This document shows, one piece after another, positions 2,752-39,573 of a stretch of DNA of 64,000 nt. Origin of the DNA: Thermosediminibacterales bacterium (GTDB taxonomy: Bacteria; Bacillota; Thermosediminibacteria; Koleobacterales; JARRCM01); NCBI GenBank assembly GCA_029982205.1, contig JARRCM010000003.1, positions 1-64,000 on the forward strand, given 5' to 3'. The notes below the pieces were generated by a model. The model was not told the DNA's origin. It saw nothing but the letters and a program-made list of their open reading frames with translations, and made no database searches. Position 1 is the first letter of the stretch. Every line of letters starts with the position of its first letter. Position numbers and translations under genes: made by a program.

Positions 2752-5700
2752 ATGCTTGGTTTGATTCTCACTTTCATAGCTTTAGTTATATTAGTATTTT
2801 TGGCTTCTAATAAATTTTTCAAGATTAAAACTAATCAATTAGAAATCAAAGATGTTTTACTAAATCCTGAGGAACTGGAATACCATGCAAAAGAAATTTC
2901 GAAGGTTCATACCGTATCAGGAAAAAAAACTTCGGCAAAATTTCTTTTATCAAGGCTAAACAGCAACTTTAGATTAATTTCATCGGTTTATAAAAGTTTA
3001 ATTAACGATGCCAAAAAGAAAAAAAATTTATCTCCTGCTTCTGAATGGTTACTAGATAACTTTTATAAAATTGAAGAGCAGGTAAAAGTAATAAGACAAA
3101 ACCTTAGAAACGATAATTTATTAGAGCTTAATATTTTAAACAGTGGTTTTCTTAAAGGCTATCCCAGAGTTTATGCAGTTGCTCTGGAACTGGTTTCTCA
3201 TACAGATGGCAGGTTGGATGAAAATGTATTGATTAATTTTATCAAATCATATCAAACTCAAAGCATACTTTCTATTGCAGAAGTATGGGCTTTGTCTCTT
3301 ATGATTAGAATGGCTCTTATAGAAAACATAAGGAATATTTGTGAAAAAATATATGAGACTCAAGTTGAATGGGAAAAAGTTGACAAATTAAGCAGTAAAG
3401 ACCCTGATGAACTATTGAATTTGATAAAAGAGAATATAGAAAAAACAGATAGAGTAAATCCTTCGTATGTTGAATATCTTTTAAGGAAACTTAGAAGGGA
3501 AGAAGTTGAATCATCAGAAATTATTTCATGCCTTGAAAAAAAATTACTTGAATTTAATACTACCATTGAAAAAGTAATTAATGAAGAGCATAAAGAACAA
3601 GCGGCAAGGAAAATATCAATAGAAAATGCTATAACAAGTCTAAATGTTGTTTCAACAATAGATTGGAATGACATATTTGAATCATTGTGTTTTGTGAATA
3701 AGATTTTGAGAGAGGATCCTCTAAAAATCTATTCTAAAATGGATTTTGAATCCAGGGATTATTATAGAAAACAAATAGAGAAAATTGCCAAGCAATACAG
3801 GGTTTCAGAAATAAATGTTGCACGAAAAGCAATAGAATGTGCCCAAAAGGCTTCAGGCAACGGTTTTCAAGACAAATCAAAACATGTGGGCTATTATATA
3901 ATTGACAAAGGCAGAAGAGAACTATTAACTGAACTTGGTTACAAAGGGAAAGATTATTTCCATAATTATCCCACATATTTTTACCTGGCACCTGTTTTTG
4001 TTTTAACAGCTTTAATATGTTCGTTTTTTATTGCTTATTCATATTTATATTCAGGTGAAAGAAATATTTTCCTCAGTATCCTAGTGGGAATTGTTGTGCT
4101 TATACCAGCTAGTGATATTTCAGTTACTACAGTTAACTGGATTTTTACTCACATGTTTCCACCGGCATTTCTGCCAAAGCTTGAGTATAGGAATGGTATA
4201 CCCGAAGATGCTTCTACAATGGTTGCAATACCAACATTGCTGCCAAATGAAAAAAAGGTCAAAGAGCTTATTGATCAAATAGAAGTATGTTATTTGGCAA
4301 ACAGGGAAAAAAATTTATATTTTGCCCTTGTGGGAGACTATAAAGATGCGCAGACTAAAAATGTTTCAATTGACGAAAAAATAAATAAAGCAGCAATTGA
4401 AGGAATAAAAAAATTAAATAAAAAATACGCTGAAAATCAGGATATTTTTTATTACTTTCACAGACATAGACAATACTGTGAAAAACAAGGCAAATGGATG
4501 GGTTGGGAGAGAAAGAGAGGTGCATTAATAGAACTTAACCAATTATTAACTGGTTCAAAAGAAACTTCTTATTCCATAATTTCAGGTGATATATCAAATC
4601 TAAAGGATTTAAAATATGTTATCACCCTTGATGCAGATACAAATCTTCCATTTGATACGGCCAAAAAACTTATCGGGGCGATATCCCATCCTTTAAATAA
4701 AGCTGTTTTAGATGAAGACAAAGGGATTGTAACAGAAGGATATGGTTTGATACAACCCAGAATAGGTGTTGATATTGAAAGTGCAAATAAATCTTTGTTC
4801 ACAAGGATCTTTGCTGGCCAGGGAGGAATAGATCCGTATACAGCAGCAATTTCAGATGTATATCAGGACCTGTTTGGTGAAGGAATCTTTACAGGAAAAG
4901 GAATTTATGACCTGCATATTTTTAATAAGGTATTAAAAGATGCAATTCCTGATAATTCAGTACTTAGCCATGACTTGTTAGAAGGCAGTTATGTTAGAGC
5001 TGGTCTTGCAACAGATATTGAGCTGATTGATGGTTATCCCTCAAAATACAGTTCATATATAATGAGGCTTCATAGATGGGTAAGAGGGGACTGGCAGCTT
5101 ATTAAATGGTTATCTTCAAGAATAAAAAACAGGAAGGGTCAGTCAATAAAGAACCCCCTTTCTGCTTTGTCAAAATGGAAGATATTTGATAACCTGAGAA
5201 GAAGTCTGGTATCTATAAGCATAATGTTGCTTTTTTTCTTCGGTTTAACAGTTTTTCCGGGTAATGTCTTTGTATGGCTGGGATTTGCCTTTCTGGCAAT
5301 TTGTTTTCCGCTAATTACGGGATTTGCTGATTATATAGTATTAAAATCCTATAAAATAAGGGAAAAACTTAATGGAAACCTTATATGTGGGCTTAAAGCA
5401 ACATTGTATCAAGCTGTGCTTTTGTTTGTGTTTTTGCCTTATCAAGCTTTTATGATGACTGATGCTATATTTAGAACCCTTTATAGAGTATATATATCAA
5501 AAAGGAATTTGCTTGAATGGGTGACAGCAGCGGATGTAGAAAAAAACTTGAAAAATGATTTGAAAAGTTATTTTAAAAGAATGAAGGCTGCAATGTTAAT
5601 AGCTGTGGCAACCTTTATGTTTGTTTTTTTTATAAAACCTGTTAATTTGATATATACACTACCTCTTGCGGCGATATGGGTATTTTCACCATTAATAGCA

Positions 5701-29906: not shown

Positions 29907-29935
29907 TTGACATTAATTACTCTCGATGTTAAAAT
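29907..29935 (+). promoter_or_regulatory. sigma-A promoter of the ilvBN-leuACDB unit
   Basis: TTGACA at 29907-29912, 17-base spacer, TAAAAT at 29930-29935 with a TG extension just upstream. Transcription would start near 29942, a few bases before the riboswitch aptamer. Confidence 0.8.
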
Positions 29936-29950
29936 ACTGAATAAATTCAA

Positions 29951-30092
29951 AACTGCAAGGTTAAACGAGGAAGTGTACCTAGGGTTCCGCCTCCTCTGGA
30001 TGTTAGGCATTTTAAATGCGGTGTTTTGCAGCTGGAGAAGGGTCTGTGACCGAGCGGTACAACTGAAGGATATACCTTCAGACACCGTGGGT
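29951..30092 (+). promoter_or_regulatory. ykkC-family riboswitch aptamer, probably the ppGpp class
   Basis: The core signatures of the ykkC family are in order: CTAGGGTTCCG at 29979-29989, GACCGAGCGGTACAAC at 30048-30063, a hairpin CTGAAGG/CCTTCAG at 30064-30081, and ACACCGTGGG at 30083-30092. CTGCAA at the 5' end pairs with TTGCAG near 30026-30031, closing the first helix. The family has guanidine-I, ppGpp and PRPP classes. The GCGGTACAA segment is not guanidine-like, and a branched-chain amino acid operon downstream fits the ppGpp class. An alternative GGGT/ACCC pairing (30089-30092 with 30100-30103) would compete with the terminator that follows. Confidence 0.75.
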
Positions 30093-30100
30093 ATAAAAAA

Positions 30101-30152
30101 CCCGAGCGGCAAGTTCCTTTACTCTGGAACTACTCTCGGGTGTTGTTGTTTT
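30101..30152 (+). terminator. terminator of the ykkC-family riboswitch
   Basis: Two-part stem CCCGAG (30101-30106) with CTCGGG (30135-30140) and AGTTCC with GGAACT inside it, followed by a T-rich tract (30141-30152). It begins 8 bases after the aptamer, so ligand state can decide its formation. Confidence 0.85.
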
Positions 30153-30175
30153 AAAATAAAATATGGAAAAAGGCA

Positions 30176-30456
30176 ATGAAGGAGAGTTGGGTTTTAAATT
30201 TTCAGTTACAGAGAGCCGGATCAGCTGAAAACCGGTACTGAAAAAAAACCTATTGCTCGCTCCAAAGCCGGACTGTCGAACAGATTTAAGTAGGCAGTTT
30301 CCGTTTTCTGCGTTAAAGTTTAGGTGTATGATATTATCCATGAATTCATACACCTGCTGAGGTCTGTGCCGTGAGGCATAGATAAAATTGGGTGGTAACG
30401 CGAAGACCTTCTCGCCCCATAAGTTGTTCTTGTGGGTGATGAGAAGGTTTATTTAT
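30176..30456 (+). promoter_or_regulatory. T-box leader, apparent Leu specifier, upstream of ilvB-ilvN-leuACDB
   Basis: Stem I carries the usual AGAGAGCCGG…GCTGAAAACCGG arm. The base of stem I pairs GGAG (30181-30184) with CTCC (30260-30263), and the triplet just before that closing strand is CTC (30256-30258), a Leu codon. The T-box sequence GGGTGGTAACGCG lies at 30390-30402; its TGGT pairs with a tRNA end whose discriminator is A, as for tRNA-Leu. The terminator stem ACCTTCTC…GAGAAGGT with a T tract ends at about 30456. It lies in tandem behind the ykkC-family aptamer. Confidence 0.93.
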
Positions 30457-30483
30457 TACTGTAAATAAAAGGGAGTGTTAAAA

Positions 30484-32139
30484 ATGAACGGAGCTCAAGC
30501 ATTAATTAAATCCCTTGAAAATGAAGGAGTAAAAGTAGTATTTGGATATCCTGGGGGAGCTGTCTTATCTCTTTATGAGGCATTAAAAGCTTCAAACATC
30601 AATCATATTCTTACACGTAGCGAACAAGCGGCAGCCCATGCGGCCAGCGGATACTCTAGGGTAACGGGTAAGCCGGGGGTTTGCCTGGCAACTTCAGGAC
30701 CGGGAGCTACCAATCTAATAACAGGAATTGCCACGGCTTATATGGATTCTATCCCTATTATTGCCATAACTGGTCAGGTATCTACTGAGATGATAGGAAA
30801 AGATGTATTCCAGGAAGTAGATATTACAGGTGCTACTGCACCTTTTACTAAACATAACTATCTCGTGAAAAACGTAAAAGACATTCCGAGGATTGTAAAG
30901 GAAGCATTCCACATTGCTTCTACCGGCCGCCCGGGACCTGTTTTGATTGATATTCCTAAAGATGTAGCCGCACAAGAATTAGAATTTTATTATCCTAAAA
31001 CAGTAGAACTAAAAGGATATAAACCAAACTACAACGGTCATCCACTGCAAATCAACCGTGCGGTTGAAGCTATTAAAAGGGCGGAAAGGCCTATTATTTG
31101 CTCAGGAGGAGGTGTTATTTCAGGAAATGCCAGCAGTGAAGTTATTAAGCTTGCCGAAACCTGTCAGATTCCGGTTGTAACCACACTTATGGGTATTGGT
31201 GGTTTTCCTGGAAACCATGAGTTGTTTTTAGGCTTGGTGGGTGTACACGGCAGCTATAGAGCAAACAAAGCTATATCATCCGCAGACCTCATTATAGCGG
31301 TTGGCGCCAGATTTGCAGATAGGGTTACGGGAGGCTCTTCCGATTTTGCCAAAAAAGCAGAAGTTATTCATATAGATATAGACCCTGCGGAGATAGGAAA
31401 AAATGTAGAACCAACCATACCGATAGTAGGAGATGTTAAAAATGTTTTGAAAGATATATTAAAAGGAGTTGACAAACAGACCCGGCCCCAGTGGATTGAA
31501 GCTGTTAATAAGTTTAACTCGAATGGTTTCAAAGATAAAAACAACGAATATGTTAAACCCCGAGATGTAATTAAAAAGCTTTACCAGCTTACCTGTGGTA
31601 AGGCCATAGTATCAACAGAGGTAGGCCAGCATCAGTTATGGACTGCACATTATTATACTTTTTCTAAACCAAGAACTTTTTTAACTTCAGGCGGTCTTGG
31701 CACAATGGGTTACGGATTTCCTGCAGCGATAGGTGCTCAAGTGGCTAAGCCTGAAGCAACTGTTATAAACATATCAGGTGATGGGAGTTTTCAGATGAAC
31801 CTTTCCGAATTAGCAACTGCAATGGAGAACCAGCTGCCGGTAAAAGTGCTGATATTTAATAACAGGTGTTTGGGTATGGTAAGACAACTTCAGGAATTTT
31901 ATTGTAATAGAAATTATTACGGAGTTAGTTTCAAAAACATACCGGATTTTGTTAAAGTAGCTGAAGGCTTTGGCGCCAAGGGATTTAGAATTACTAAAGA
32001 CACAGAGATAGAACCGGTTCTCAAAAAAGTGATTGATTCTAAATACCCTTGTGTTGTTGATATTATCATAGCTCCAGAAGAAAATGTTTATCCTATGGTC
32101 TTGAATGGTTCGCCAATCAGTGAAATGATAGGAGGTTGA
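30484..32139 (+). CDS. ilvB: acetolactate synthase large subunit (first copy)
   Basis: 551 aa ThDP enzyme making acetolactate or acetohydroxybutyrate for Val/Leu/Ile. [14 protein letters not shown], the cofactor-activating Glu in [49 protein letters not shown] and the ThDP motif [15 protein letters not shown]…[10 protein letters not shown] are present. The start is ATG 30484 with GGGAG 8 bases upstream; a GTG three codons earlier overlaps that ribosome site. First gene of ilvB-ilvN-leuACDB, behind a ppGpp-type riboswitch and a Leu T box. It differs clearly from the second copy at 37515, for example [11 protein letters not shown] against HAADGYARATG. Confidence 0.95.
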
Positions 32140-32143
32140 TATT

Positions 32144-32620
32144 ATGAGACATACCCTAGCGGTTTTAGTAGAAAACCATCCTGGAGTGCTTTCAAGAGTT
32201 TCGGGTCTTTTCAGCCGAAGGGGTTTTAACATCGAGAGTTTAGCTGTTGGTCCTACCGAAAAACCGGATATCTCTAGAATGACTATAGTTGTTGAAGGTG
32301 ACGATTATGTTATAGAACAGGTTTCCAAACAATTAAATAAACTTGTTGACGTTATTAAAGTAAGTGATATTAGTTCCCAGGCCTCTGTCAGCAGGGAATT
32401 GGTTTTGATAAAAGTTGATGCAGACCCTTCAGTAAGGTCGCAAATAATACAAATAGTTGAAATTTTTAGAGCAAATATTGTTGATGTGGGGAAAAACAGC
32501 ATGATTATAGAACTTACTGGGGACAAAGATAAAGTAACCGCCATGGAAGAACTATTAAAACAATTTGGTATAAAAGAGTTGGTTAGAACCGGTATTGTGG
32601 CAATGAACAGAGGTTCATGA
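32144..32620 (+). CDS. ilvN: acetolactate synthase small (regulatory) subunit
   Basis: 158 aa. The N-terminal ACT domain ([35 protein letters not shown]) is the Val-binding feedback domain, followed by the usual C-terminal domain ([19 protein letters not shown]). It activates the large subunit and confers inhibition by branched-chain amino acids. Four bases after ilvB with GGAGG before the ATG. It is the only small subunit here, though there are two large subunits. Confidence 0.96.
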
Positions 32621-32645: not shown

Positions 32646-34187
32646 ATGGGAAGGATTTATATCTTTGATACTACATTAAGGGATGGAGAACAGTCTCCAG
32701 GTATCAGCTTAAACCTTCAGGAAAAGCTAGAAATTGCAAAACAGCTGGCTGCTCTAAAAGTTGATGTAATCGAGGCAGGTTTTCCCATTGCGTCAAAGGG
32801 GGATTTTGAATCAGTAAAACAAATAGCACAAAAAGTTAAAGGTCCTGTAATTGCAGGATTGGCAAGGGCAAACTATAAAGATATAGATACAGTATGGGAA
32901 GCGGTGAAGTTTTCTGAACAGCCCAGAATTCATACTTTTATTGCTACTTCAGACATTCACATGAAATATAAGTTAAAAATGACAAAAGATCAAGTTTTGG
33001 AGGCTGCATACAGAGCTGTTAAGCATGCTAAAAAGTATACCAAAAACGTCGAATTTTCTGCTGAAGATGCTGTAAGGTCTGACCTGGAATTTCTGTATAG
33101 AGTTTTTGAAGAAGCCATAAAAGCTGGGGCAGAGGTTATTAATATTCCGGACACCGTAGGTTATGCAACACCCTGGGAATTTGGAAAACTTATAAAAAAT
33201 ATTAGGGAAAATGTTCCGAATATAGATAAAGCTGTAATCAGTGTCCATTGTCATAATGACCTTGGCCTGGCAGTGGCTAATACTTTGGCCGCTATTAAAA
33301 ATGGTGCTCAGCAGGTGGAATGCACAATTAACGGTCTTGGAGAAAGGGCGGGCAACGCCGCACTTGAAGAGATTGTCATGGCTTTAGCTACCAGAAAAGA
33401 TTTCTTTGAACATGAAACAGGGATAGAAACACGCCAAATATATCGGACGAGTAAACTTGTGAGCAGTTTAACAGGTGTTAATCTGCCTCCAAATAAAGCG
33501 ATTGTGGGTGCAAATGCATTTGCCCATGAATCCGGAATTCATCAACACGGTGTAATAGAAGAAAAATCCACCTATGAAATAATGACACCAGAAACCATCG
33601 GTTTAGCCGAGAGCAAACTGGTAATGGGTAAACATTCTGGCAGACATGCTTTTAGGGAAAAACTAAAAGAGCTGGGATATGATTTGGCTGATGAGGACAT
33701 AAATAAAGCTTTTATACGATTTAAAGAGCTTGCAGATAAAAAGAAAGAAGTTACAGACCTTGATATAGAGGCACTTATAAGTGAACAGGTTATTAAAACC
33801 CCTGAAGTTTACGAACTAGAGTATTTGCATATTACCAGCGGTAATAAAATTGTTGCCACTGCAACAGTAAAACTTAAAGTTGGGGATGAGGTTATAGAGG
33901 AGGCTGCTTGTGGTGATGGGCCAGTAGATGCATCTTATAAAGCCATAGACAGAGCAGTAAAAGGTCAAACAAAGCTGGTGGAATATGCCATAAAAGCTGT
34001 TACAGGTGGAAAAGATGCGCTGGGAGAAGTTGTTGTAAAAATTGAAAGAAACAATAAAGTGTATATCGGTCGGGGTTTGAGCACAGATATTATTGAGGCA
34101 AGTGCAAGGGCTTATTTGAATGCTATAAACAAATCTTTTGCCGATACTGAAATTAATGCCGAAGATGTTAAAACAACAGCTGTCTAG
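32646..34187 (+). CDS. leuA: 2-isopropylmalate synthase
   Basis: 513 aa. Condenses acetyl-CoA with 2-oxoisovalerate, the first step of leucine synthesis. TIM-barrel motifs [27 protein letters not shown], the metal-binding [14 protein letters not shown] and [15 protein letters not shown]; then the [10 protein letters not shown] segment and a C-terminal LeuA regulatory dimer domain (about 390-500), the site of leucine feedback. Size matches bacterial LeuA, not the shorter homocitrate synthases. GGAGGGCG precedes the ATG; 25 bases after ilvN. Confidence 0.96.
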
Positions 34188-34210: not shown

Positions 34211-35485
34211 ATGGGAATGACAATAACCCAAAAAATACTTGCAGACCATACCGGGAAAAAATATGTAGAACCAGGGGAATTAATTCTTGCTGATGTAGAT
34301 ATGGTTTTGGGTAATGATATTACTGCTCCAGTAGCCATAAAGGAGTTCTATAAATCTGGATGTAAAAAGGTTTTTGATCGGAAAAAAATAGCGCTGGTGC
34401 CTGACCATTTTGCTCCTAATAAAGACATAAAGTCTGCACAGCAGTGCAAAACAGTTCGGGATTTTGCAAGGGAACAAGGAATCGAAAACTATTTCGAAGT
34501 AGGAAAAATGGGAATTGAACACGCTCTTTTACCTGAAAAAGGCATGGTAGTGCCCGGAGATCTGGTGATAGGTGCGGATTCTCACACTTGCACATATGGT
34601 GCCCTAGGTGCGTTTTCCACAGGGGTAGGAAGCAGTGATATGGCTGCTGCTATGATGATGGGGAAAATATGGTTTAAAGTCCCTGAAACTATAAAATTTA
34701 TTTTTAACGGTAAGCTGAATCCCTGGGTAACGGGGAAAGACCTGATTTTATATACCATAGGCCAGATAGGCGTAGATGGAGCATTATATAAAGCTATGGA
34801 GTTTTCCGGTGAGGCAATTACGTCTCTTTCAATGGATGAAAGATTTTCTATCACAAACATGGCTGTTGAAGCAGGAGCTAAAAGCGGAATAATAGCTCCG
34901 GACCAGAAAACAATAAAATACGTTGAGGAGAGGTCAAATAAACCTTATAACATCTATGAAAGTGATGATGATGCAGAATACAGTGAAATCTTTGAGTTTG
35001 ATTGTTCTCAAATTGAACCCCAGGTAGCACTTCCGCATTTACCAGAAAATACTGTGGGCATCAGCAGCATAGACCATATTCTTATTGATCAGGTGGTTAT
35101 AGGGTCATGCACCAATGGCAGAATTGAAGATATGAGAGCAGCTGCAAAGATATTGAAAAATCAGAAAGTGCATCCTTATGTTAGACTTATAATAATACCT
35201 GCTACTCAAGAAGTATATCTGCAATGTATTAAAGAAGGCATTATAGAAATCTTTATAGAAGCAGGAGCAGTTGTCAGTACTCCAACCTGTGGGCCATGTC
35301 TAGGTGGATATATGGGGATTCTTGCAGAGGGTGAAAAGGCACTTGCTACGACAAACAGGAATTTTGTTGGAAGGATGGGTCATCCCAAAAGTGAAGTATA
35401 CCTTTCAAATCCTGCAGTAGCAGCTGCATCAGCAGTAATGGGTCGAATAGCAAGCCCAGAGGAGGTAATAAAAAATGCTGTTTAA
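34211..35485 (+). CDS. leuC: 3-isopropylmalate dehydratase large subunit
   Basis: 424 aa aconitase-superfamily subunit that isomerises isopropylmalate using a [4Fe-4S] cluster. The three cluster cysteines are visible in [12 protein letters not shown] and [28 protein letters not shown] binds substrate. At 424 aa it belongs to the shorter class (like archaeal LeuC/HacA) rather than the 460-470 aa enterobacterial type, in keeping with a separate small subunit of 166 aa. Its 3' end overlaps leuD by 11 bases. Confidence 0.95.
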
Positions 35486-35975
35486 ATCAGAAATTATAAA
35501 ATGTGGAGACAATGTGGATACAGATGTTATAATTCCTGCCAGATATTTAAATTCTTCTGACCCTAAAGAACTGGCTGCTCATGTGTTTGATGATTTAGAC
35601 CCTAACCTTAAGCAAAAAATAAAAAAAGGGTGTATTCTGGTTGCGGGTAAAAATTTTGGATGTGGCAGTTCAAGAGAACATGCGCCAATAGCGATTAAAG
35701 CATCAGGGATTTCCTGTGTTATTGCAGTTTCTTTTGCCAGGATATTTTACAGAAACGCTATTAATATCGGTCTTCCTATTCTGGAGTGTAAGGAAGCCGT
35801 AGAAGAGGCCGAAGAAGGAGATGAATTTATAGTTGATTTTGAAACAGGAAAAATACAGAATGTTACTAAAGACCGGTCATATAATGCAGGAGGGTTTCCG
35901 CCCTTTATAAAAGAAATCATTACAAAAGGCGGGATTATAAGTTTCGCAGCTGAAAGGATGAAACAAAATGTATAA
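35475..35975 (+). CDS. leuD: 3-isopropylmalate dehydratase small subunit
   Basis: 166 aa swivel-domain partner of Leu[17 protein letters not shown] near the N-terminus and [21 protein letters not shown], the aconitase-type substrate loop, define it. The start lies inside the end of leuC (AGGAGG is within leuC) and its stop overlaps leuB by 8 bases, so the three genes are translationally coupled. Confidence 0.95.
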
Positions 35976-37050
35976 AATAGCTGTTATTCCCGGTGATGGA
36001 ATTGGACCGGAGATTACTGAACAAGCAGTAAAAGTTTTGAAAGCTGTTGGCAAACATTTTAACATAGATTTTTCCTTTTTTGAAGCCAGTGCCGGCGGGG
36101 CAGCTCTTGATACAAAAGGGGACCCTCTGCCACAAGAAACTATAGAGATTTGTAAAAGCTGTGATTCTATTCTCTTTGGAGCAGTAGGAGGTCACAAATG
36201 GGATGACCTTCCTGCGGAAAAACGACCTGAAAATGCCGTGCTCAGGTTAAGAAAGGAACTAGGCCTTTTTGCAAACCTGAGGCCTGCTGTGATTTTTGAA
36301 TCTCTTGCAGATGCTTCGCCGCTAAAAAAAGAAATTTTAGATAAAGGTTTTGACATCATGGTAATAAGGGAATTAACCGGAGGAATATATTTTGGCAAAC
36401 CCAGGGGCAGAACTAATATTAATAATGGTTTTAAGGCTATAGATACTATGGAATACACCACTGATGAAATCCAAAGAATAGCTATAGTAGCATTTGAAAT
36501 TGCTCGAAAGCGGCGCAAAAAAGTAACTGTTGTAGATAAATCCAATGTATTAGAAACCTCTAGGCTCTGGAGAGAAGTGGTAAAGTCAGTTCATAAGAAT
36601 TATCAGGATGTAGAAATAGATTTTCAGTATGTTGACAATTGTTCTATGCAATTGGTGAAAGCACCTTATCAGTTTGATGTAATATTAACCGGGAATATGT
36701 TTGGTGATATTTTGAGTGATGAATCAGCTGCCTTGACAGGTTCAATTGGAATGTTGCCTTCAGCAAGTTTGGGTGATGGCAGTTTGTTTCTTTACGAACC
36801 AATTCATGGTTCTGCACCCGACATTGCAGGCCAAAACACAGCAAATCCTATTGCATCGATTCTGTCAGCAGCGCTTATGCTCCGTTACAGCTTCGATTTG
36901 CAGTGGGCTGCGGAGGTTATTGAAAACTCTGTTAGAGCGGTTCTTGCCAAGGGTTATCGCACTGCGGACATCATGCACGATGGTTGTATTGAGGTAGGTA
37001 CATTAGAGATGGGTGAATTAATTTCCCGGGAAATTGAAAACTATAAATAA
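35968..37050 (+). CDS. leuB: 3-isopropylmalate dehydrogenase
   Basis: 360 aa NAD-dependent oxidative decarboxylase completing leucine-precursor synthesis. [41 protein letters not shown], the [18 protein letters not shown] catalytic region, [16 protein letters not shown] and [18 protein letters not shown] (NAD site) are all present. Last gene of the unit; no strong hairpin follows before the next promoter at 37079. Confidence 0.97.
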
Positions 37051-37108: not shown

Positions 37109-37164
37109 AAAAATCAAATATTATTTATTATTTAAATAAAAAAGAAAAATTGGTTAATTTCGTT

Positions 37165-37469
37165 TAAAAGTGATGATGGGAAGAGTAGGTTAACTCAAAA
37201 AACAACCACAGAGAGCCGGGTATGGTGAAAAACGGCGTTGTTTGAGTTTTCTGAAGATCATCCCTGAACTGTACAGGTGAATTAAGTAATCTGTACCGGG
37301 CCCCCTAGTGGGAATTGGCGACCGTTAAAACCGCCGGGTATCGGGTAGATGTTTGTGTTCTGCCCCGTACCTACAAAGGCTGATTTCGTGAGAAGTCAGT
37401 GAACTAGGGTGGTAACGCGAAGACCTTCGCCCCTTTATTACAAAGGGGTTGAAGGTCTTTTTGATTTTT
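37165..37469 (+). promoter_or_regulatory. T-box leader, apparent Ile specifier, upstream of second ilvB
   Basis: Stem I contains AGAGAGCCGG and the AGTA/GAA loop-E strands. The triplet before the closing strand of the stem base (TCCC) is ATC at 37257-37259, an Ile codon. The T-box sequence GGGTGGTAACGCG is at 37407-37419. The terminator pairs AAGACCTTC-GCCCCTTT with AAAGGGG-TTGAAGGTCTT and ends in TTTTTGATTTTT near 37469. The discriminator match (A) fits tRNA-Ile. Confidence 0.93.
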
Positions 37470-37514: not shown

Positions 37515-39185
37515 ATGAGACTAACCGGAGCGGAGATTTTAATTAAATGTCTTGAAGAACAGGGTGTTGATATTATTTTTGGATATCCTGGAGGAGCTGT
37601 GCTGCCGATTTATGATGTGTTATATTTTACACCAACAATTCGTCATGTAAGGACATGTCACGAGCAGGGTGCTGCTCACGCAGCTGATGGTTATGCCAGA
37701 GCAACAGGGAAAGTAGGAGTATGCCTTGCTACATCTGGGCCCGGAGCTACAAATCTGGTTACAGGAATCGCTACTGCATATATGGATTCTGTACCTATTG
37801 TTGCTATAACAGGACAGGTGCCTCGAAACTTATTAGGCAAAGATTCTTTTCAAGAAGTAGATATTACCGGAATTACAATTCCCATAACAAAACATAATTA
37901 TCTTGTAAAAGATGTGGAGAAACTGGCTGATACTATAAGGGAAGCATTTTACATTGCTAAAAGTGGAAGACCAGGTCCAGTTTTGATTGACCTTCCTAAA
38001 GATGTTATGCTTTCAGAAACAGAATTTTCTCCTTATGACCCGAAAAAACTATCTAAAAGTTTTCCTGATGATACAGCCTTGGATTTAAGAGAGCTGGATT
38101 GTGCTGTAAATGCTCTAAATGAATCAAAAAAACCTGTTTTGTATGTAGGTGGAGGAGTAATAAATTCAGGTGCTACAGAACAGGTAGTAGAACTGGCTGA
38201 AAAATTTCTGATTCCTGTTACCACAACTTTAATGGGTATAGGCGGCTTTCCGGGAAAACATCCTCTGTATTTGGGCATGTTGGGAATGCACGGAACAGCA
38301 CCGGCAAATTTTGCCATATCTCATTGTGACCTGTTAATTGCTGTTGGAGCGAGATTTGATGATAGAGCTGTAGGTAAATTCGAGAGTTTTGCTCCGGAAG
38401 CAAAGATTATACACATAGACATAGACCCTGCAGAGATTGGTAAAAACATACATGTTGATATTCCTATAGTTGGTGATGTTAAGAAAGTTTTGGAAATTAT
38501 TAACAGCAGGCTGGAACCTATAAGACAAAGGGAATGGCTTAAACAAGTTGATAAGTGGAAAAAGGATTATCCTTTAAAATACTGTAATAACGGCAAATTG
38601 AAACCACAGTATATAATTGAACAGATTTATGAACTGACAGATGGTGATGCTATAATAACAACTGAAGTAGGTCAAAATCAAATGTGGGCTGCTCAGTTTT
38701 ACCGTTTTAAAAACCCCAGATCTCTAATATCTTCAGGAGGCCTGGGTACGATGGGTTATGGCTTGCCCGCTGCTTTAGGCGCCCAATTGGGTAGGCCTGA
38801 TAAAAAAGTATTTAATATAGCAGGTGATGGAAGCTTTTTGATGAACTGTCATGAACTTGCTACAGCGGTTAATTATAAACTTCCTATTAATATAATTTTA
38901 CTAAACAATCAATCCCTCGGGATGGTAAGACAATGGCAGGATATGTTTTTTGGAAAAAGGTTTTCTTCAGTAAATCTTGAAGACTCAACAGATTTCGTGA
39001 AATTGGCTGAGGCTTACGGCGCAGTGGGATTGAGAGTAAAGAAAAAAGAAGATGTAAGGCCTATTTTAATGAAAGCCTTAAATATTGAAAAGCCTGTATT
39101 AATAGAATGTGTAGTTGACCCTGATGAAAAAGTCTTTCCTATGGTTCCCGCAGGTGGGGCACTGCATGAGATGATAGGCATATAG
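37515..39185 (+). CDS. ilvB: acetolactate synthase large subunit (second copy)
   Basis: 556 aa paralogue of the enzyme at 30484 with the full set of motifs: [72 protein letters not shown] and GDGSFLMNCHELATA…NNQSLGMVRQWQ. ATG 37515 follows GGAGGG; the in-frame stretch back to 37449 runs into the T-box terminator and is not coding. It is alone behind an Ile T box, without an ilvN partner, so it may share the IlvN encoded at 32144 or act unregulated. Confidence 0.95.
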   Translation: MRLTGAEILIKCLEEQGVDIIFGYPGGAVLPIYDVLYFTPTIRHVRTCHEQGAAHAADGYARATGKVGVCLATSGPGATNLVTGIATAYMDSVPIVAITGQVPRNLLGKDSFQEVDITGITIPITKHNYLVKDVEKLADTIREAFYIAKSGRPGPVLIDLPKDVMLSETEFSPYDPKKLSKSFPDDTALDLRELDCAVNALNESKKPVLYVGGGVINSGATEQVVELAEKFLIPVTTTLMGIGGFPGKHPLYLGMLGMHGTAPANFAISHCDLLIAVGARFDDRAVGKFESFAPEAKIIHIDIDPAEIGKNIHVDIPIVGDVKKVLEIINSRLEPIRQREWLKQVDKWKKDYPLKYCNNGKLKPQYIIEQIYELTDGDAIITTEVGQNQMWAAQFYRFKNPRSLISSGGLGTMGYGLPAALGAQLGRPDKKVFNIAGDGSFLMNCHELATAVNYKLPINIILLNNQSLGMVRQWQDMFFGKRFSSVNLEDSTDFVKLAEAYGAVGLRVKKKEDVRPILMKALNIEKPVLIECVVDPDEKVFPMVPAGGALHEMIGI

Positions 39186-39257: not shown

Positions 39258-39304
39258 ACAAAAAAATTTATATTCAATTTATATTCAAAGAATAGATACA
39301 TGCA

Positions 39305-39573
39305 ATGAAGGAGATTACAGCTCAAGACTTAACTTTAGAGAGCCGGAGCAGGTGGAAACCGGTGTTAAACTTGAGTTTGGTGCCACTCCCGAGCTTTACG
39401 GCTGAAAGGGTTAAGTAAGCTGTAACGTGTAGGCTGCGTTAAACAGCCGGGTGGTTATACACCTATTAAGGTCAATTACCGTGAGGTATTGATAAACTAG
39501 GGTGGTAACGCGAAAGAGACTCTCTCTCGCCCCTATTGCAAATTGATACGGGCTTGAGAGAGTTGTTATTTTT
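39305..39573 (+). promoter_or_regulatory. T-box leader upstream of ilvE, specifier GCC (Ala) or GTG (Val)
   Basis: Stem I with AGAGAGCCGGAGCAGGTGGAAACCGG; stem base GGAG (39310-39313) with CTCC (39386-39389). Aligned with the two leaders upstream, the specifier triplet is GCC at 39382-39384 (Ala); shifted by two bases, GTG at 39380-39382 (Val) would fit an aminotransferase of Val/Ile/Leu better. T-box GGGTGGTAACGCG at 39500-39512. The terminator ACTCTCTCTCGCCC…GGGCTTGAGAGAGTT is followed by a T-rich tract ending at about 39573. Confidence 0.9.

Follow-up and report, generated by a model that had tools for sequence, protein, structure and literature searches.

A ppGpp-type ykkC aptamer and a leucine T box in series before ilvBN-leuACDB: a further example of a predicted AND gate

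A tandem of a ppGpp riboswitch and a T box, together with its AND logic, was proposed in 2018 (PMC5912903, Sherlock et al. 2018, Fig. 6C; also PMC6031431, PMC7583486). A count from 2022 lists 15 leaders in which a ppGpp riboswitch is followed by a T box-Leu and 16 with the reversed order (PMC9481103, Table 2). In the published accounts, the AND logic stands as a prediction (PMC5912903, PMC9481103). ppGpp riboswitches antiterminate via their basal helix, and in a related RNA, ppGpp stabilises this basal helix against the terminator (PMC10687018). As for the ykkC classes, a pyrimidine at position 49 rules out the guanidine class, and C75 is the pairing partner of the ppGpp guanine (PMC6031431).

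Here we analysed a stretch of 64,000 nucleotides (the window) from a Thermosediminibacterales bacterium (genome G000), and found a leader of a branched-chain amino acid (BCAA) operon that holds, from 5' to 3', a promoter, a ykkC aptamer with terminator 1, a T box with terminator 2, and the genes ilvB-ilvN-leuA-leuC-leuD-leuB. This arrangement is already published, and the window is a further example of the ppGpp/T box-Leu tandem. We read the leader as two independent, serial antitermination switches that respond to ppGpp and to uncharged tRNA-Leu, respectively, and which would form an approximate AND gate (probability about 0.85). The anatomy, the overlap of aptamer and terminator, the pocket residues, the specifier, the tRNA gene and the conservation of the layout were computed here; from these we infer ligand binding, switching direction and combined logic, for which the serial AND gate is the best explanation. 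The elements of the leader are as follows; the coordinates given in the earlier note were right.

29907..29935, + strand: sigma-70-type promoter, TTGACA-N17-TAAAAT with TG before the -10 (pattern scan; relatives L121, L122, L123)
29968..30118, + strand: ykkC subtype 2a (ppGpp-type) aptamer (RF00442, ppGpp-type and PRPP-type models, alignment structure)
30054..30055, + strand: equivalents of G48 and C49 (sequence, alignments, rule from PMC6031431)
30082..30086, + strand: ACACC, equivalents of A74, C75, A76, C77 and C78 (sequence, alignment, residue roles from PMC6031431)
30105..30105, + strand: A where the PRPP-diagnostic G96 would sit (compared with 20 ppGpp-type and 19 PRPP-type relatives)
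30100..30152, + strand: terminator 1, hairpin 30100-30141 followed by GTTGTTGTTTT (folding, dG -20.4, z -4.4)
30167..30422, + strand: T box leader, stem I to antiterminator (RF00230, 92.5 bits)
30256..30258, + strand: specifier codon CUC (Leu) (adjoins the stem I pairs GGAG/CUCC; specifier of relatives at the same place)
30393..30396, + strand: T box bulge UGGU, complement of the tRNA 3' end ACCA (sequence)
30404..30460, + strand: terminator 2, hairpin at about 30404-30451 with a U-rich tail, overlapping the antiterminator (folding, dG -27.4)

The promoter carries 11 of the 12 consensus letters, and its score in the pattern scan alone was not above chance. L121, L122 and L123, the first three same-order tandem leaders found, have these hexamers and this spacing at a similar distance from their aptamers, and they back the promoter call better than the scan does. 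A second promoter-like site was searched for in the stretch between the aptamer and the T box, and none was found there. These observations bear out the single promoter that the earlier note had described. The genome encodes CodY; control of this promoter by CodY was considered and rejected, as the best nearby match to the CodY box has 5 mismatches and is no better than background.

The downstream genes follow one another without large gaps.

30484..32139, + strand: ilvB, acetolactate synthase large subunit (TIGR00118, 806 bits)
32144..32620, + strand: ilvN, acetolactate synthase small subunit (NF008864)
32646..34187, + strand: leuA, 2-isopropylmalate synthase (TIGR00973)
34211..35485, + strand: leuC, isopropylmalate dehydratase large subunit (TIGR02083)
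35475..35975, + strand: leuD, isopropylmalate dehydratase small subunit (TIGR02084, just under the cut-off)
35968..37050, + strand: leuB, 3-isopropylmalate dehydrogenase (TIGR00169)

The class of the aptamer was examined with our own models, built from ykkC loci sorted by downstream gene rather than from published alignments, with MAFFT and RNAalifold. The ppGpp-type model (R1) was trained on 20 loci from relatives, located before ilvBN, ilvE, BCAA ABC transporters and glutamate synthase, and the PRPP-type model (R2) on 19 loci from relatives with purine genes or xanthine/uracil permeases downstream. The window aptamer is in neither training set. A search of the genome contigs with the ilvB protein gave distant homologues only, and the leaders of these were left out. 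The earlier note had suggested scoring the aptamer against the ykkC subclass models, and this ranked the ppGpp-type model (87.6 bits, 29968-30120, the sole match in the 64 kb window) above the PRPP-type model (64.1 bits) and guanidine-I (44.1 bits). The ppGpp-type model lacks one hairpin, between GGUACA and ACACC, which should not alter the class because the margin of 23.5 bits over the PRPP-type model is large enough. PRPP-type loci score in reverse, including loci outside the training set (for example L124, with 63.6 bits for R1 and 89.8 for R2).

We found the ykkC core and a P0 helix, formed by 29968-29972 paired with 30114-30118 in the structure of alignment A1. Position 49 is C (C30055) and position 75 is C (C30083). 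With some freedom in the alignment of this short stretch, position 96 is A in the window and in most BCAA-linked relatives, absent in most of the glutamate synthase group, and G in 19/19 purine-linked or permease-linked relatives. Position 104, a G contacting phosphate in the crystal structure, is A in the window and likewise in several BCAA-linked relatives. The pocket letters (C49, C75, A at 96) and P0 thus point to ppGpp as the probable ligand, and the subclass named in the earlier note is upheld by model scores and pocket residues alike.

Two other ligands were weighed against ppGpp. Were the aptamer of the PRPP class (subtype 2b), the two inputs of the gate would be PRPP and uncharged tRNA-Leu. 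The scaffold, the pyrimidine at 49 and P0 are common to both classes, and 64.1 bits is still a sizeable score for the PRPP-type model; the lower rank of that score, the A at 96 and an operon for BCAA rather than purine synthesis make this reading very improbable. Two loci of the same order and of one genome (G001), L121 before ilvBN and L120 before glutamate synthase, carry CCCAGGCGG, whose G could align to G96 and would favour PRPP, although both resemble ppGpp-type loci in gene context and junctions. The single-letter rule for position 96 is therefore imperfect in this group as far as the alignments tell, and the ligand can be named with less certainty for the L120 and L121 aptamers than for the window aptamer. 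A guanidine-I riboswitch can be practically dismissed. RF00442 is the only Rfam family with a convincing match to the aptamer in cmscan (29968-30110, E 4e-6), but its score lies under the gathering score of 63 because RF00442 models the guanidine class; position 49 is C where the guanidine class has A, P0 is present, and the operon holds no guanidine-type genes.

The direction of the first switch is suggested by the overlap of aptamer and terminator. The earlier note had given the aptamer a terminator of its own, and both were recovered, with model matches from 29968 and a hairpin at 30100-30141. The 3' strands of P3 and P0 double as the 5' arm of terminator 1, so a folded, ligand-held aptamer would exclude terminator 1. 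Most ppGpp-type loci tested have a terminator 5' arm built likewise, and the terminator pairing is kept as the letters change among ppGpp-type loci (CCCGAG/CUCGGG, CCCAGG/CUUGGG, UCCCAG/CUGGGA, CCCAAG/CUUGGG). At high ppGpp, the ligand would bind the ykkC-2a aptamer and stabilise P0 and P3, terminator 1 would be blocked, and RNA polymerase would proceed; we infer an ON switch on the basis of this overlap. The U-tract of terminator 1 has two G interruptions and is weaker than the runs in the corresponding tails of L122 (TTTTTTATTTT) and L123 (TTTTTATTTTT), so some transcripts may pass terminator 1 unaided, and the leader may behave more like a T box to which ppGpp adds a modest effect. Taken further, both elements would be real and the first would barely gate, leaving control all but entirely to the Leu T box, with slight adjustment by ppGpp. 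The two G breaks favour such a leader, but the hairpin itself is stable and the tandem layout is kept across the order, and we regard it as unlikely compared with a working first gate.

The second switch is a complete T-box leader with a second terminator, in agreement with the earlier note. The match to RF00230 covers all 219 model positions (E 2e-20, gathering score 93). The Leu identity also holds: a tRNA-Leu(GAG) gene is present in the genome (G000:C6, about 2655-2741, ARAGORN), and its 3' end ACCA matches the UGGU bulge. In tRNA-Leu, the GAG anticodon would base-pair with the CUC specifier and a free ACCA end with the bulge; uncharged tRNA-Leu would thereby hold the antiterminator and block terminator 2.

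The window contains two more T boxes. One (37164-37437) has the specifier AUC (Ile) and its own promoter-like sequence, and is followed by a stand-alone second ilvB paralogue (37515-39185). The other (39296-39537) is located before ilvE, and its specifier reads GCC (Ala), with AUC (Ile) or perhaps GUC in relatives; alanine would be an unexpected signal for the T box of a branched-chain aminotransferase gene. A selenocysteine tRNA gene was found at 2374-2470 of the window (RF01852, 76.8 bits). Elsewhere in the genome, leuS has a Leu T box leader with CUC (G000:C1:14266-14527; L204:1454-1715, - strand), as in L306 (G002) and L307 (G001). Stem III and the antiterminator of this leader flank a short stem (GGGTAAAAA...TTTTTACC) with a complete tRNA-Ala(GGC) gene nested at its tip, and three genera of the order keep this arrangement. 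In G003, a tRNA-Ala follows an upstream gene of the same kind, and the T box is missing. Processing of the tRNA-Ala could cut the leuS leader.

The synthesis of ppGpp was also considered. A search of genome G000, whose assembly is 86% complete, for PF04607 (RelA/SpoT) did not find it, and a ppGpp synthetase domain is present in 13/13 tested relatives that are at least 90% complete. The gene order in G002 is apt-rel-dtd, and a search of G000 for these neighbours of rel found dtd absent and no good match to apt. Since the neighbours are missing too, a single assembly gap probably accounts for rel, apt and dtd better than gene loss does; otherwise, rel would have been lost and the genome would hold a ppGpp riboswitch without a synthetase.

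Relatives of the same order show the same tandem layout before ilvBN. A T box lies downstream of a ppGpp-type aptamer in L121 and L122 (ilvBN), L123 (ilvE), L266 and L295 (ilvB), L267 and L268 (ilvE), and also in L274 (whose ORF looks similar to a peptide transporter permease) and L304. For L266-L304, the ORF names come from visual inspection of the translations, not from a profile search. The T box precedes the aptamer in L285 and L298, both before ilvE; there, the scores of R1 and R2 are close or favour R2, and position 96 is A. The specifier is CUC (Leu) in the window, L121, L122, L266 and L295, AUC (Ile) in L267, L268 and the reversed L285 and L298, and tentatively GUC in L123. The published tandem count has Leu T box partners only (PMC9481103). 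We think it fairly likely that a ppGpp aptamer and a T box form a reusable module in this order and class, with Leu before ilvBN and Ile (perhaps Val) before ilvE.

Other riboswitch neighbours were seen among these genomes. Upstream of glutamate synthase genes, L120:3143-3534 (- strand, G001) has a ppGpp-type aptamer and, about 80 nt on, a lysine riboswitch (RF00168, 125.4 bits). Among the logic-gate tandems tabulated in 2022, a ppGpp-lysine riboswitch pair is absent (PMC9481103). This pair and the tRNA-Ala nested in the leuS leader are more surprising than the window's own tandem. L124 (G002, 3450-3650, - strand) has a purine riboswitch followed directly by a PRPP-type ykkC aptamer, which is the known guanine-PRPP tandem. 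In four relatives (L125, L126, L129, L134), a ZTP riboswitch lies behind the glutamate synthase-like gene that follows a ppGpp-type aptamer.

Full expression of ilvBN-leuACDB would take RNA polymerase past both terminators, and would therefore need the general starvation alarm and a leucine shortage together. The window is one more case of a pair of RNA sensors connected in series; its parts are intact, its relatives are conserved, and each half can be changed separately, which makes a clean test case for the predicted AND logic.

The window matches the published ppGpp/T box-Leu tandem (PMC5912903, PMC9481103) in the order of its elements upstream of BCAA genes, a ppGpp-type ykkC aptamer and then a Leu T box, in having a separate terminator for each of them, and in the predicted AND gate. 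It differs in details, namely the interrupted U-tract of terminator 1, a hairpin insert in the aptamer arm after GGGTTCCG, and the A at position 104. The guanine-PRPP tandem (PMC5912903) also places a ykkC scaffold in series with a second RNA sensor, but it uses one common expression platform with IMPLY logic, whereas the window has two platforms and two predicted ON switches. With T box-Leu leaders, the window shares stem I, the CUC specifier, the UGGU bulge and the antiterminator/terminator pair; unlike in those leaders, its T box lies behind a second riboswitch.
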